Shown here in pieces: positions 25,344 to 32,797 of a stretch of DNA of 39,826 nucleotides (its first letter is position 1; every line of letters begins with the position of its first letter). The stretch covers positions 1-39,826 of the forward strand of contig BPDA01000009.1 in assembly GCA_019654055.1 (NCBI GenBank), given 5' to 3'. The stretch is from Methanobacteriota archaeon. Its GTDB lineage: Archaea > Thermoplasmatota > Poseidoniia > Poseidoniales > Thalassarchaeaceae. A program made the position numbers and the translations under genes. Below the pieces are notes generated by a model, which did not search any database, was not told the origin of the DNA, and worked only from the letters and a program-made list of their open reading frames with translations.

Positions 25344-26489
25344 TCAGCCGTGACGTGACTCAAAGTCACGCATGAACCCAACTAGGGCCTCGACGCTCTC
25401 AATGGGGCATCCGTTGTACATGCTGGCGCGTATTCCACCCACGCTGCGGTGCCCCTTCAGCCCACCAAGCCCGATGCCGCGGCTTCGGCTAAGAACGCCC
25501 CTTCGAGATCCTCGTCAGATAAGCGCCATGTCACATTCATCACCGAGCGCGAGCCTCCATGCGCGTGCGGGCGCCAGAAATCACTCCGGTCGAGCTCATT
25601 GTAGAGCAGGGCCGCCTTGGCGCGATTACGCTCGATGGCGCCCTCTAGTCCGCCGTTACGCTCGATCCAGGCAAAGACTCTGTCGAGAACGAAAATCCCG
25701 AAGGTGTTCGGAGTGTTGAACATCGAGCCCTTGGAGACGTGAGTGTGGTAGTCGAGCATGGTGGGTATGCCCTGTATACCTCGGGACAGGGCCCAAGGTG
25801 AGAGGATTACCAGCGTCACGCCGCTGGGCCCGAGGTTCTTCTGCGCCCCGGCGTAGATGACATCGTGAGCGGAGACGTCCAACGGGACACCGCATATGTC
25901 CGAACTGGCATCCACGACCCTCGGCTTGCCACCGCTGTCAGGGAGGTGGTGGAACTGGGTGCCATACAGCGTGTTGTTCGAGGTGTAGTGGAAGTAGGCA
26001 GCATCCTTGCGGATGGAGTAGTCCCCGTCCTGCGGGACCGATCTGAAGCCGTTGTCTGAATCGTCCCAGACCGAAGATGCATCCCCCACCCTGCTGGCCT
26101 CCTCGAGCGCCTTCTGGGACCAGCCACCTGTGACTAGGAAATCCGCCTTCTGCCCCTCTTCCATCAGATTAAGGGCAGTCATGTAGAACTGCGTCGAGGC
26201 GCCCCCCTGTAGGAACAGGACCTCGTAGTCCTCTGGGACAGATAGAACCCTCCTGATTCGCCTCCGCCGAGTCGATGACGCTCTGGAACGTCGGGCTGCG
26301 GTGGGACACCTCGAGCAGCCCGAAACCGCTCTCATCCAGATTGGGTAGCTCCGCTGCCACCTCCTCCACCACTTCCAGAGGCAGCACAGCTGGTCCGGCG
26401 CCGAAGTTGTGGATACGACCGGCAGGTTGCACGCCCCGACGCGCCCGCTTCGGGCCTTTCAGCCCATCGGAGCCCACGATAGGGTTCAT
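25344..26489 (-). CDS. serC: Phosphoserine aminotransferase, two apparent frameshifts
   Basis: [18 protein letters not shown]...[17 protein letters not shown] / [26 protein letters not shown]...[17 protein letters not shown]...LAEAAASG / [41 protein letters not shown]. Confidence 0.88.
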
Positions 26490-26513
26490 TTTCGGGTGGC
26501 CGGACGGACAGTC

Positions 26514-27116
26514 GTGCTCCGCATAGGCCTCGTCATGCTGCAAGGCGCCCGACACGTCCACATTGCGGCGCTACAGCGAGCCGCAGATGAGTGCGACATC
26601 GAGATTGAGGTGCACGAACTGCGCAAAGCCTCGGACCTAGCGGCAGCCGACCCTCATGCAATAGTGCTGCCCGGAGGCGAGTCCACTACAATGCGACTTA
26701 CCGGGAACCACGATACATCCAGGCTTCTACCAGCTCTTTTCGAATGGATTCGTTCGGACTCATCTCGCCCGGTGCTTGGCACCTGCGCGGGCGCGATACT
26801 GCTGGCCGACCCTCGGGATGGCGGCGACCCTCTGGTGGACGCCGACATCGACCGTAATGCGTACGGGCGGCAGGCAGACTCCTTCCAGAGCACCCTCGAG
26901 GCCACCATCCTAGGGCGCGACTTCCCAGGCGTGTTCATCCGGGCACCGCGATTCGAATCGCACAGTGAGTCGGCAACGGTGGCAGCCATGCACGGTGAGG
27001 AGGTTGTGGGAGTCAGGACTGGAAACAGGCTCGCCCTGACCTTCCATCCGGAACTATCCTCTGACACCGGCTTCCACCGCTGGCTGCTTGAGACCGCCGC
27101 AGGTGCTGGGTCATGA
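26514..27116 (+). CDS. pdxT: Pyridoxal 5'-phosphate synthase glutaminase subunit
   Basis: IGLVMLQGARHVHIAAL, LPGGESTTMR, GTCAGAILLA, NAYGRQADSF, FHPEL; GTG start inferred. Confidence 0.9.
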   Translation: MLRIGLVMLQGARHVHIAALQRAADECDIEIEVHELRKASDLAAADPHAIVLPGGESTTMRLTGNHDTSRLLPALFEWIRSDSSRPVLGTCAGAILLADPRDGGDPLVDADIDRNAYGRQADSFQSTLEATILGRDFPGVFIRAPRFESHSESATVAAMHGEEVVGVRTGNRLALTFHPELSSDTGFHRWLLETAAGAGS

Positions 27117-28284
27117 GCGTCACACTCAGTCTGCCGCAGGTGCCAGAGTTGCACGAGCCTCCCGAGGAGGCCGACGCAGAGGGCTGTATTCAGTGCCAGA
27201 TGGGTAGCAAACTGGTCCTTTTCATCACGGGCAACTGTCACTGGCGCTGCGACTACTGCCCCCTTTCAGAGACCCGCCGCGACATCGACCACATGTTCGC
27301 CAACGAGCGTCGCTGTGAGAGTTTCGACGAGGTCATCGAGGAGGCGAGGGCAATGCGTGCCACAGGTGCTGGAATCACCGGCGGCGATCCCTTGATGGCT
27401 CGAGAGAGAACGCTCGAGGGGATTAGGCGACTGAAGGCCGAGTTCGGCACGCAGTTCCACCTGCACATGTACACCAGCATCCCGTTCCGTCCCGAGGGGG
27501 CCCGTCCGAGTTCGCCGAGGCCGGGCTCGACGAGATACGATTTCACTTCCTCGACCTCGCGGCCGAAGAGTACCGAGAGACTATCGCGGCCTGCTCCGAA
27601 TCGGGGATTCTGACTGGAGTCGAACTGCCCTGCGAGCCAGACAAGGAATCAGAACTGTTCGAGCTGCTGGACGCCCTGAGGGGATACGATATCGACTTCC
27701 TCAATCTCAACGAGCTTGAAATCACGGTGGGCAACATCGACAACATGGAGTTACGCGGATTCAACCTGTCGACCGAGATAACCGCTGGTGCCGCGGGCTC
27801 CGCAGAGCTCGCCCTAAATCTACGAGATCGCGTGATTGCCGCATCGAACGGCCTCCCCGATCCGATTGACGGAGAGACGAGAGAACCCTATGGGTATCAC
27901 CTGAAGTTCTGCACGGCGGTCTACAAGGACGCCGGGCAATTGCGGAGGAGGTTCCAACGCAGGGGCGAAGCGACCATCGCGCCTCACGAGACGCTGACTG
28001 ACGACTCCACCCTGATGTTCGGCGCCGTCTACTCCTCGGAGGAGGACCAAGAGTCGTGGAGAGGGGAAATCGCAGAGCAGACTGGCCTGCCGCAGAGATT
28101 CATGCTGTGGGACCCCGAAAACCATCGCATCGAACTCCCTCTGGTGGTGGCCGAGACGATAGCCGAGCACGTTGACGCACCAGTGGCTATGGTAGAGGTC
28201 ACCCCGACCTTCGAGAGGATGGAGGTGACCGTTGTCTGGCTCAACGACCAAGCATCGGGTGAGCACTCCTCGTTGGGTTCATAG
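27113..28284 (+). CDS. Radical SAM protein, one apparent frameshift
   Basis: NCHWRCDYCPLSE CxxxCxxC, ITGGDPL; shift at GGGGG ~27495-27500, continuing SEFAEAGLDEIRFHFLDLAAEEYRETIAACSESGILTGVELPCEPDKESELFELLDALRGYDIDFLNLNELEITVGN...; ATGA overlap with pdxT. Confidence 0.82.
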
Positions 28285-28308
28285 GGTCTCGACTTTCGTT
28301 GCCTAGTC

Positions 28309-30150
28309 GTGCCGGTCAGAATCGGAGACCCAGAAGCCGCGGGAGTCAATCCGTTCCGCAGGCTCTCAGCATCGCAGGTCAACACTTGGAAATCCTGCAA
28401 TAGGCTATGGTACTACACATACATCGAGCGTCTGAAGAGCCCGCTGCCACCTCAGATAATCCGAGGCAATGCAGCCGAGGAATGTGTATGTCGAGTCCTC
28501 AGAGATTCTCCCGTTATGATTTCCGCAGACTCCCCAGATGAGATGAAATCACCCTTGTTGGATGACGGCTCCCTAGACTACGACAATCAGATGGCGTGGC
28601 CAAGCCCAGCGATGCTCGAGCTTCCCGAGGAGCAGTGGCCGGACGACAGGAAAACCCTCGAGTCTTGGGCGATGTCCCGCGTCGATGTGCACTTCGATTC
28701 GTGCTGGGACGCGGCAGTCGCAGACTGGGAATCGTCCCCCAACCGCTCCGGATCGGTGGCAGATGCAGATCCCGAAGAAGCCCTAGAAATGGTTCGGGCT
28801 GGCATCAGGATGCACCTAGATCAGGTTGAAACTTGCTTGAAGGCCGGAGGTGGGCCGAAGTTCTCAGAATGGCGCGCAGGTGGTATGAGAGGCCAGTGGC
28901 CGGCACCAGACGGCTTCCCACGTGTCTGGATAGAGAGGCACCCGGCGGCGCGTGACTCAGGCGACATCACTTGGTTCGAGGCTTGGGAGGTCGCGCGTCC
29001 GTGGTTCGTCGACCCAGATGCTGGTCAGTGGAAGCAGACCACTTCACACCCCGAGGAGTGGTTCCAGGGAGAGTACGACATGGTGTACGACTGGACCGGT
29101 GCCATTCGAATCATCGACCTCAAGGCATCGATAGGCAGGGGAGATCGCTCGGGCAGTTACATCGACCAATTACGGCTCTACTGCTGGTTGTGGTGGGAGA
29201 CTCACGGTAGGGCTGATGAGGTCGAGGCACTCGAGATCTGGTATCTTGGAACCGGTTCGGTCAAGGACGTTCCGAGGCCGACTCAGGACGAGTTGCTCGA
29301 ACTCAGTGAGGAACTTGAGGCCCTGTATGGCAGAATCCACGCTCGCGACCCAACAATCGACGAGTGCCCGCCCGAGCCCGCACCTCTGAGATACTTCGAC
29401 GAGGGCGGGGTCCCTTCGCAGACTCCCATCGACCCGGACCCACGCGCTCGTTGCAGACGCTGCGAGCTTCGTGGCGTCTGCGAGGGCAGCGAACACGACC
29501 TAGAACTCCCTCTCGAGCGCAGCATAGAGCGCTTCGGCCACAACTGGCCGGTAACCCCGCTTGGCGAGATTGTGACCCGTGTGAACGTGGTCGGGGATGT
29601 CTCGGGCTTGCGCGGTCCGAACCTAGCGGCCGATGGCTCGGTTGAACTCTCATTCATTTTGCAGGAGGGGTATGACCGAGCCAAGGTGCGACCCTCGCGA
29701 TACGGCACCCCGAGACAGATCACCCGCTCGATTGCCAATGGCAGCAGGGTCCGCATCGAGAACGCCATGGCATCGGTCTGGAAGGGCGAGGTAGTTCTCG
29801 ATTTAGACGATAAGTCCTCGGTCGCAATCGCAGATGAGTCCGACTCCGCCCCCATAGTCGACATAGAGACCAAGGTCAATGCCATCGGCAGGGTGTGGTC
29901 GGTGAACGCATTCCCAGATGGCGAGGGGGTGACCCGGTGGTCGGTGACGATGGTGGACCAGACGGGGTCTGCAGGAGTGGTTGCATTCAGACAGTTCATC
30001 CCGCTGGCTGCAGCGGGGGTGACTAGGGGTGATGAGATAGCGATTCTCAACGGGGAGATCGGCGAGTTCAACGGCCAGCCGCAGGTTCGGATCGGACCAG
30101 GGGGGCGCCTCGTGATACTGCGTGACTCCTCTGAGGTGCCTGAATTCTAG
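28309..30150 (+). CDS. Cas4/RecB-like PD-(D/E)XK nuclease with Fe-S cysteines and C-terminal OB-fold-like region
   Basis: 613 aa; LSASQVNTWKSCNRLWYYTYIERL; EYDMVYDW...IRIIDLKAS...YIDQLRLYCWLWW; CRRCELRGVCEG; C-term resembles OB strands (VNVVGDVSGLRGPNLAADGSVELSFIL..., VNAIGRVWSVNAFPDGEGVTRWSVTMVDQTGSAGVVAF). Confidence 0.82.
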   Translation: MPVRIGDPEAAGVNPFRRLSASQVNTWKSCNRLWYYTYIERLKSPLPPQIIRGNAAEECVCRVLRDSPVMISADSPDEMKSPLLDDGSLDYDNQMAWPSPAMLELPEEQWPDDRKTLESWAMSRVDVHFDSCWDAAVADWESSPNRSGSVADADPEEALEMVRAGIRMHLDQVETCLKAGGGPKFSEWRAGGMRGQWPAPDGFPRVWIERHPAARDSGDITWFEAWEVARPWFVDPDAGQWKQTTSHPEEWFQGEYDMVYDWTGAIRIIDLKASIGRGDRSGSYIDQLRLYCWLWWETHGRADEVEALEIWYLGTGSVKDVPRPTQDELLELSEELEALYGRIHARDPTIDECPPEPAPLRYFDEGGVPSQTPIDPDPRARCRRCELRGVCEGSEHDLELPLERSIERFGHNWPVTPLGEIVTRVNVVGDVSGLRGPNLAADGSVELSFILQEGYDRAKVRPSRYGTPRQITRSIANGSRVRIENAMASVWKGEVVLDLDDKSSVAIADESDSAPIVDIETKVNAIGRVWSVNAFPDGEGVTRWSVTMVDQTGSAGVVAFRQFIPLAAAGVTRGDEIAILNGEIGEFNGQPQVRIGPGGRLVILRDSSEVPEF

Positions 30151-30236
30151 TGGCGCCGAGAGAGGGATTTGAACCCCCGCGTCCAATGGACAGTGGATTT
30201 CGAATCCACCGCAATACCGGGCTATGCGATCTCGGC
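30151..30236 (-). tRNA. tRNA-Ser (CGA), long variable arm, CCA encoded
   Basis: Reverse complement GCCGAGATCGCATAGCCCGGTATTGCGGTGGATTCGAAATCCAC...GGGGGTTCAAATCCCTCTCTCGGCGCCA. Confidence 0.93.
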
Positions 30237-30269
30237 AGCGGTTCCGCCACCTGCGGATTAGAGATAAGC

Positions 30270-30491
30270 ATGACCCGACACGCAAGGACCGTGAGGATCG
30301 AGATCAATCATGACGGAGAAACACTCTCAGTCGAATCCGAGGGGCCAATCACAATATTGGAACTACTCGAGAGGCTGGGCATCCCGTCATCCACCGTCCT
30401 CGCCGTTCATGGCGAAACGATAGTGCCTCATACGTCGCGGATTGAGTCTGACATTAGTCTCGAGCTGATAGTCGTCTCGTCGGGCGGTTGA
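30270..30491 (+). CDS. Ubiquitin-fold (MoaD/ThiS/SAMP-like) small protein ending in Gly-Gly
   Basis: 73 aa; TVRIEINHDGETLSVESEGPITILELLERLGIPSSTVLAVHGETIVPHTSRIESDISLELIVVSSGG-stop. Confidence 0.85.
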   Translation: MTRHARTVRIEINHDGETLSVESEGPITILELLERLGIPSSTVLAVHGETIVPHTSRIESDISLELIVVSSGG

Positions 30492-30494
30492 GGG

Positions 30495-31258
30495 TTAGAC
30501 GTAGAAGTCACTGGAACCCTCTGACTCGCCTGCGCTGAGAACCTCCTCTATGCTGCCGCTGACCTCCATCGTCTCCATCAGTTTCCTAGCCGTCTCCTCG
30601 GTCGAATCGAGATCCAGTTCTAGTGAGAGGTCAAGCCCCGCTCCTATCCAAGAAGCCAGTCGGTCTGCTGCCAGCACGTCGGCACTGGCTCCGATGGTCT
30701 CTGCCACAAGCCCAACTGCGGGAACGCCGTACAGCGGGGAGAGGGAAATCAGCAGCCCGGCTATGCCTATCATGCCAGCCTCGGGATGCTCCCTGCTGAC
30801 CGGGATGTCGTTGGCCTCGAGGTTCTTCCTGACCTCGGGGTCGGCGCAGATTACGTGGATGCCCCTGTCGTCGCTGCCTGCTGCTAGGCCGGCCAGCACC
30901 AGCAGTTGGGAGGTGCCAGATTCCGAGGCCATCTCGAGGATTGCTTCGGAGACCTCGTGCTGACCTGCAGCCGTCATCGGCTGCAACGGCCCACCTATGG
31001 TGATCACGGTCCTGCCATCCGGGATGAGCACCGAGTCGATGTTGATGCGAGGGGGGATACCAGCCCGTCGCCATCGAGGGTCGAATGCGGGGGAAAGTCT
31101 GGGTGCAGGATCCATCCTATGGTTCGCGAGGGGTGCTTCTCGATCAGCGAGTCCACGACTATCTTGCCGACATTTCCCACTCCGGGCACAGCTTCCAGTA
31201 TCGCCGCGTGCTCAGGCAACCCCTCGCCTACGAGCCAATGAACCCTAGTTCGGTTCAT
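30495..31258 (-). CDS. PAC2-family proteasome assembly chaperone, one apparent frameshift
   Basis: MNRTRVHWLVGEGLPEHAAILEAVPGVGNVGKIVVDSLIEKH...HPDFPPHS / shift at C-run ~31055 / PRINIDSVLIPDGRTVITIGGPLQP...LSPLYGVPAVGLVAETIG. Confidence 0.8.
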
Positions 31259-31473
31259 TCCTCCTCGCCCCCGTCGTCTCTGGGCGTCGGAAGGGATGCG
31301 AGCCATTCCTCGCTGCCCACATCGAGCCTCTTCCTACGCCTCGCTCCTTGAGCGTCCTCTGGCGAGTATTTCATCGGGGACACGGCAACCATCGCTCCTC
31401 CGCACTCCTTGCATCTGGTAGCCAAGCCGTACTCGCCGCAAGAACTGCAGCGCTGCAATCTGGTGCGTACCAT
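31255..31473 (-). CDS. nop10: Nop10, H/ACA RNP component
   Basis: 72 aa; RCSSCGEYGLATRCKECGGAMVAVSPMKYSPEDAQGARRR. Confidence 0.85.
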   Translation of the reverse strand: MVRTRLQRCSSCGEYGLATRCKECGGAMVAVSPMKYSPEDAQGARRRKRLDVGSEEWLASLPTPRDDGGEEE

Positions 31474-31534
31474 CTCATCCCCGGCCTGCTTCCGCTAGGA
31501 AGGGTCAATGAAGCCTACGGCTCGATAGGTACCG

Positions 31535-32335
31535 TCAGAGGCGTTCGGCGGAGATTGAGCCCTCGACCGAGGCCATGCGCTGCGAGGCCGCCTCCTGCGC
31601 GGCTTCCCACACAGACTCGGCAGCCTGATAGTCCGGGGCGCGGATGTCTACGCGGTAGTGAGGCGCCCCGTCGTAATGGCAAGTCAGAGTGACCTCCTCG
31701 AGTCCCTCTGCGCAGGCCTCCGCGGCCAGAAGCGCCTCCTTAATCGCAGCAACTCCCTCAGGGCCCCAGACCTGCAGGTCGAACTCACCGCGAATCTCCA
31801 CGTAGGGAGGAACGATGTTCTCGACGGCCAGTTCGGTGACCACTGTCATCCAATCACCCGTGAATCCGGACTCGCTCAGGACGGTCTCGCTCAGGGCACA
31901 CTCCTCGAGGGCCCCGTATAGCGTCCCGAAGACCTCGCGCATCTCGTCACAGACCACGTTAGTCCTGTCCTCGTCCCAGCCGACTCTCTCGGCCACGACA
32001 CGCATAATCTGTCTGGCACGCTTGCGGTTCTTCCAAGACTGCAAGGTGTCCCTCCTGCGCTCTTCGGAGACGGATTTGATTGAGAGCTCGATGCGCTCCT
32101 TGTCGCGCTTAACCTGAATGGCCTTGGCGACCACGCGCTGACCCTCTCTGAGGTGGGTCCCGATGTTCTTGACCCAGCCTGAGGCGACCTCGCCGATGAA
32201 TACGAAACCGGTCCTGCCCTCGTATCCCTCGAGGTTGAGGTAGGCACCGTTCTCCTTGACGCTCCTGACCGTGCAGATCAGCAGTTCGCCTTCTTCCGGC
32301 CATTCGTTGGAACTTATCTGGAACGCCCCCTTCAC
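31535..32335 (-). CDS. eif2a: Translation initiation factor aIF2 subunit alpha
   Basis: 266 aa; S1 domain GELLICTVRSVKENGAYLNLEGYEGRTGFVFIGEVASGWVKNI; GTG start. Confidence 0.93.
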   Translation of the reverse strand: MKGAFQISSNEWPEEGELLICTVRSVKENGAYLNLEGYEGRTGFVFIGEVASGWVKNIGTHLREGQRVVAKAIQVKRDKERIELSIKSVSEERRRDTLQSWKNRKRARQIMRVVAERVGWDEDRTNVVCDEMREVFGTLYGALEECALSETVLSESGFTGDWMTVVTELAVENIVPPYVEIRGEFDLQVWGPEGVAAIKEALLAAEACAEGLEEVTLTCHYDGAPHYRVDIRAPDYQAAESVWEAAQEAASQRMASVEGSISAERL

Positions 32336-32502
32336 TCGAGGGCGTCTATGATGTCGCTGCCTGTCAGGTCCGCCCTGCCACCTGCGGGTCGAGCCAGCGT
32401 GGCTCCGCAGATTGAGCAGGAGATTGAGGTTGACGCCCTCTCGAAGATGATGGCCTCGTTACCGCAGTCCCGGCAGTTAACACGAAGGAACCTACCAGCC
32501 AT
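32332..32502 (-). CDS. rps27e: Ribosomal protein S27e
   Basis: Manual translation MAGRFLRVNCRDCGNEAIIFERASTSISCSICGATLARPAGGRADLTGSDIIDALE; short, absent from ORF track; GTGA overlap with eif2a. Confidence 0.9.
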   Translation of the reverse strand: MAGRFLRVNCRDCGNEAIIFERASTSISCSICGATLARPAGGRADLTGSDIIDALE

Positions 32503-32515
32503 CATCCTACCTCAA

Positions 32516-32797
32516 TCACTTGTCGACTAGCTCGAACTTCCTAGCGCGCTTCCCGGAAGGAGAGTGCGCCTTCCCGGTCTCCTGGCACCGGTAGATTAGG
32601 TTGACGCGCTTGGTCGGCTTCTCCCCCGACGGCTTCGGTCGTGGGAAACCGCGGTATCCAGAGGTAACTCGACGGAAGCGGCGCTGCCCCCACTTCAGCT
32701 CGCTGGCACGTCGCTTCCTGACACGCTCGACTGTGTGCTCGGTGTGCTTGCCAGCCGCGGGGCTGTAGCGCTTCACTGTCCTCGGCATCTTGACCAT
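32516..32797 (-). CDS. rpl44e: Ribosomal protein L44e (zinc ligands largely lost)
   Basis: RASELKWGQRRFRRVTSGYRGFPRPKPSGEKPTKRVNLIYRC; canonical L44e core. Confidence 0.9.
   Translation of the reverse strand: MVKMPRTVKRYSPAAGKHTEHTVERVRKRRASELKWGQRRFRRVTSGYRGFPRPKPSGEKPTKRVNLIYRCQETGKAHSPSGKRARKFELVDK

Follow-up and report, generated by a model that had tools for sequence, protein, structure and literature searches.

A core gene of the archaeal order Poseidoniales encodes a predicted Fe-S PD-(D/E)XK nuclease with two RPA-type OB folds in the same chain

The gene at positions 28309–30150 of the forward strand encodes a protein that almost certainly combines an Fe-S PD-(D/E)XK nuclease with two RPA-type OB folds in a single chain. 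It lies in a window of 39,826 nucleotides, the whole stretch of DNA that was analysed, from a metagenome-assembled genome of Thalassarchaeum (Marine Group IIb, Poseidoniales) of 1.3 Mb and 73% completeness. The gene, termed here B in order to distinguish it from a tandem paralogue, A, is a single frame of 613 codons with a GTG start and a product of 613 amino acids, and its closest named record, from Candidatus Thalassarchaeum sp., is 97% identical. The frame is a real gene, since relatives keep its start and Met-Pro, it is present in 59 of 60 related genomes, and its catalytic and Fe-S residues are invariant. In Dna2-type nucleases the controlling RPA is a separate partner, whereas in B the RPA-type module sits within the nuclease chain. 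The earlier note had held that an already characterised family with the same architecture would overturn its reading; no named family or paper for such a nuclease-OB protein was found, and the portions available of a pAgo survey and of a Cas4 phylogenomics paper contain no precedent for a PD-(D/E)XK-RPA-OB fusion. What appears new here is a nuclease of this architecture in the core gene set of a single order, which ranks among the most abundant archaea of the surface ocean, together with an informative paralogue pair. On balance we favour for B a core housekeeping function as an RPA-tethered ssDNA-end nuclease acting on replication or repair intermediates.

The nuclease half comprises residues 1–400 (28309–29508, forward strand). 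The earlier note had proposed an N-terminal Fe-S PD-(D/E)XK nuclease from the letters alone, and the profile and the model agree with it: the Pfam profile PF12705 (PDDEXK_1) matches B with E = 5.4e-14 and 53.2 bits, against a cut-off of 22, and is matched by 21 of 21 aligned B and 13 of 13 A proteins. The motifs then quoted are all found at their places, namely C30 in LSASQVNTWKSCNRLWYY, D270-L-K272-A-S, Q287 in DQLRLYCWL and the triplet C382-x2-C385-x5-C391; to these are added W-E-x-x-R-P-W-F at 226–233 and GEYD at 254–257. Residues D257, D270, K272 and Q287 are the same in all 55 sequences compared (40 of B, 15 of A), and E57, G254-E255-Y256-D257 and Y291 are likewise invariant in B. The proposed Fe-S ligands C30, C382, C385 and C391 do not vary among the 40 B sequences. 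One N-terminal and three C-terminal cysteines reproduce the layout of the Fe-S nucleases of the Cas4/AddB/Dna2 type, and a cluster is predicted. In the AF2 model this half is confident (pLDDT 91.7), and the best solved match in Foldseek is mouse Dna2 (3.9e-4), followed by Argonaute-associated Cas4-family proteins (ACE1 being the second-best protein), Cas4-Cas1-Cas2 complexes, AdnAB, MGME1, Cas4 and AddAB. Superposition on PDB structures reaches at best a modest TM-score by query of 0.36, because of a long insert between Glu57 and GEYD, modelled with helices at 114–142 and 155–178.

The metal site departs from that of the nearest solved relatives. Dna2 coordinates its first metal ion through His164, Asp278 and Glu299, alongside Lys301 and Gln314 (PMC4716839). 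Judged by motif order and spacing, these residues would correspond, respectively, to E57, D257, D270, K272 and Q287 of B. The metal-coordinating His of the Dna2/AddB/RecB nuclease site is thus absent, and Glu57 in its place is invariant in every A and B sequence; the source genome has four other PDDEXK_1 proteins, and in three of these a His was read at that site by eye. Glu can bind metal, so B is expected to be active as a nuclease despite its unusual site, and with Glu57 replacing the Dna2 His164 its catalysis could differ from the Dna2 type.

The C-terminal 190 residues or so were described earlier as one or two OB-type barrels; there are two, at 424–507 and 522–605 by the DSSP strands of the AF2 model, and the models of B are confident (pLDDT 89 and 92). 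OB fold 1 (residues ~424–507, 29578–29829, forward strand) is delineated by those strands, by Foldseek and by an NCBIfam ssDNA-binding protein match at residues 475–516. OB fold 2 (residues ~522–605, 29872–30123, forward strand) is of the RPA type, matching the archaeal RPA profile with E = 7.5e-8 as well as being modelled as a barrel. Among PDB structures the OB half retrieves the tandem OB proteins HIN-200, POT1 and Teb1 at 1e-7 to 1e-10, and RPA appears beside POT1 and HIN-200 among the matches of the pair. B therefore carries OB folds with sequence similarity to RPA, in tandem, and by fold and by that similarity they would bind ssDNA. The structural check suggested by the earlier note, in which the loss of either the nuclease or the OB assignment would have counted against it, recovered both folds.

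B is a core gene of the Poseidoniales. In a class-wide sample, whose split by order was derived from genome numbering, all 34 of the 34 Poseidoniales genomes with a completeness of 90% or more carry it, as do 161 of the 174 Poseidoniales genomes overall, which argues against an accessory defence gene, and it was found in none of the 21 genomes sampled from the class's other orders. Elsewhere in the phylum, weak matches are all that the full-length profile gives. In 10 Thermoplasmatota genomes inspected these cover the OB half alone, in RPA-like frames, and of 35 genomes 4 give matches to the nuclease profile, all of them short motif hits in frames 277 to 1137 amino acids long; such matches were rejected as relatives of B, and profile searches found no nuclease-OB fusion there. 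Beyond the phylum the search was one pattern-based scan for close relatives, so that a wider distribution is possible. No relatives occur in 50,697 phage records, 72,556 plasmid records or viral contigs, and a viral or plasmid origin was discarded. In one Thalassarchaeaceae genome (G018) B is broken into several frames (L057:4971-6773 and L073:5522-7324), as a pseudogene or by assembly error.

In most Poseidoniales a second gene, A, of ~530–680 amino acids and the same architecture, lies directly upstream of B. ABCE1 (RLI) directly precedes A: in 16 of the 16 loci that have A, the genes ABCE1, A and B stand in an uninterrupted row, several of them with a 4-bp overlap between A and B. The catalytic residues are kept in A, and so are four cysteines in most members. 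Several members have their last Cys ahead of the C-x2-C pair instead of behind it; this is the case in L058-L060 and L064-L069, where the total is mostly still four. Within the Thalassarchaeaceae A is present in genera g2, g3, g5 and g8; 57 genomes from seven genera, the source genus among them, yielded no A, and a search for A as a hidden second copy elsewhere in the source genome found none. The A-less B sequences form one clade (support of 99% on the nuclease and 89% on the OB half), for which a single loss of A in the clade of the source would be the simplest reading. The description of B as standalone consequently holds for this A-less clade, source genus included, but in most of the order B is the second gene of a tandem behind ABCE1.

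The tandem pair and its natural loss provide a built-in experiment, in which the constraint on the OB half appears to follow the presence or absence of A. On a fixed tree the ratio of OB to nuclease branch length is 0.64 for A, 0.78 for B without A and 1.55 for B with A. Of the 182 OB positions, those conserved at 90% or above amount to 62 for B without A, 46 for A and 3 for B with A; since the groups compared differ in depth, these counts overstate the contrast. In pairs matched at 50–60% nuclease identity, OB identity is 56% for A-less B and 40% for B with A. A paired test gives p = 0.056 for five plus five sister pairs that were chosen after the tree was seen. One genus (L034/L036) is an exception, since its B keeps constrained OB folds (ratio 0.55) in the presence of A; the shift in constraint may hence have begun before A was lost. 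A graft of the OB half of A-less B from its paralogue was rejected (AU p = 0.021). Taken together, these comparisons of sequences suggest one constrained ssDNA-binding platform per A/B system, and the resulting prediction is that A supplies ssDNA binding in the A/B lineages and B alone supplies it in Thalassarchaeum.

Of the known systems Dna2, the eukaryotic nuclease-helicase with a bacterial homologue, Bad, is the closest: it shares with B the Fe-S-stapled PD-(D/E)XK domain, of which it is the best solved match, and relies on RPA-type OB domains in order to handle ssDNA. It differs in that its C-terminal SF1 helicase is missing from B, which ends in OB folds, and B has its RPA-type OBs in the same chain, Glu for His164 and a long helical insert. 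In Dna2 a loop braced by the Fe-S domain turns the active site into a tunnel, and it is RPA that determines the end to be admitted, thereby controlling polarity (PMC4716839). B would then be a Dna2-like Fe-S nuclease without helicase and with RPA-type ssDNA-binding domains in one chain. The OB pair would hold it on ssDNA, at 5' or 3' flaps, resected ends or stalled forks, beside its own tunnel entry, and the DNA end would thread through the Fe-S-bridged tunnel to the PD-(D/E)XK metal site. Binding, polarity and the displacement of genomic RPA would be governed by the fused OBs, a part that falls to the separate RPA in the case of Dna2. Across most of the order B would work with the tandem A, and the two probably form one complex with A as its main OB platform; in the clade of the source, where A was lost, B would do both jobs. 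Nuclease activity, threading, polarity, the A-B complex and the role in replication or repair, like the DNA end-processing proposed at the outset, are what we infer.

Other relatives resemble B in part. EXO5 and MGME1 are RecB-like nucleases (ssDNA exonucleases) that also dispense with a helicase, EXO5 has an Fe-S cluster and RPA dependence, and MGME1 is among the PDB matches; both are eukaryotic and are not known to have built-in OB folds. Archaeal RPA (replication factor A) has DNA-binding domains like the OB folds of B, without a nuclease, and the source genome has a gene for an RPA of its own, separate from B, at another locus. A bolder proposal, which we put forward tentatively, is that A and B are the two subunits of an order-specific Fe-S nuclease that has an RPA-type clamp built in, the Poseidoniales counterpart of Dna2-RPA, with the platform on one subunit and the constraint regained by B upon loss of A. 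The exchange of His for Glu at the metal site would, as a part of that joint reading and with equal reserve, be the mark of a distinct catalytic subfamily.

A recombination nuclease that resects ends, either replacing or assisting AddAB or paired with a helicase encoded elsewhere, is an unlikely alternative. The nearest families, AddB, AdnAB and Dna2, do act in resection (PMC4716839), and the nuclease domains of AddB and AdnAB are Fe-S PD-(D/E)XK domains of modest structural similarity to B. However, B lacks any helicase or helicase-like module, neither B nor A is linked to a helicase, and the source genome already has an AddA-like helicase-nuclease and an AddB-like nuclease. The absence of a helicase, AddA or cas gene stands for the window proteins scanned, but the genome as a whole does hold an AddAB-like pair. 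With its own RPA and this pair, neither role is vacant in the source genome, and B probably acts on a different kind of substrate, flaps or ssDNA tails for instance. The pair itself, found here in an archaeon, consists of a 1686-aa UvrD helicase-nuclease of AddA type adjoining the 1204-aa AddB-like nuclease (L111:9257-17787, reverse strand). Two more stand-alone PDDEXK_1 nucleases are encoded on contigs C34 and C10, one of 395 aa (L110:4948-6135), near an NAD-dependent DNA ligase-like gene, and one of 339 aa (L112:4471-5490).

That B is instead a solo-Cas4-like or defence nuclease against invading DNA, in the style of DruK or of the Argonaute-associated Cas4 proteins, is improbable. It would account for the weak PADLOC matches of B to DruK and Cas4 and for the rank of ACE1 among solved folds, but those PADLOC matches are limited to the generic nuclease core, and a defence role was set aside. 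Cas4 and solo-Cas4 (PF01930, TIGR00372; the Cas4-like group of pfam12705) share the PD-(D/E)XK fold and the C...CxxC...C layout; B is about three times longer, has tandem OBs and no CRISPR, and is a core gene. With TIGR00372 it scores 12.6 bits, well short of the equivalog cut-off of 65, and Cas1 occurs in 0 of 13 genomes of the source genus, so that membership in Cas4/CRISPR was rejected and the lack of a CRISPR context is upheld. Moreover, the synteny of B is conserved across the order and not patchy, mobile-element records hold no relatives, and its neighbours are ABCE1, translation and biosynthesis genes. A nuclease related to RNA or the ribosome is very improbable: ABCE1, the tRNA-Ser and a conserved translation-gene neighbourhood (L44e-S27e-aIF2alpha-Nop10) point that way, but the solved structures closest to the nuclease domain belong to DNA enzymes, the OB folds are RPA-type, and the same translation cluster, the LSIN cluster, almost systematically adjoins the replication genes PCNA, PriS and GINS15 in other archaea (PMC2643942).

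For the RPA-tethered nuclease preferred here, the neighbouring LSIN cluster (described in PMC2643942) hints at replication, though weakly, because it is convergent with B and not co-transcribed. It occupies 30495–32797 of the reverse strand, with a PAC2-family gene (taken as COG2047), Nop10, aIF2alpha, S27e and L44e. The synteny expected from the window was seen in part: COG2047-Nop10-aIF2alpha-S27e-L44e is the neighbour of B common to the whole order, but the pdxT/radical SAM neighbourhood was seen in the A-less clade only. The 24-nt gap between the radical SAM frame and B (28284 to 28309) was given correctly; the radical SAM gene itself (27113–28284, forward strand) is frameshifted in the source assembly, being split into two frames with a break near 27466–27502, and is a single 380-aa frame in relatives. 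The break is probably an assembly indel, or else a real frameshift. SerC (25457–26561, reverse strand) also appears split between two frames, and is one frame in relatives; both breaks suggest indel errors in the source assembly. A convergent tRNA-Ser(CGA) (30151–30236, reverse strand) abuts the stop codon of B and is context, not part of the system. The listed ORF of 113 aa at 30150–30491 (forward strand) begins antisense to this tRNA and reads 'REGFEPP', which we take to be a known signature of spurious translation; the ThiS-like gene proper probably begins close to 30252.
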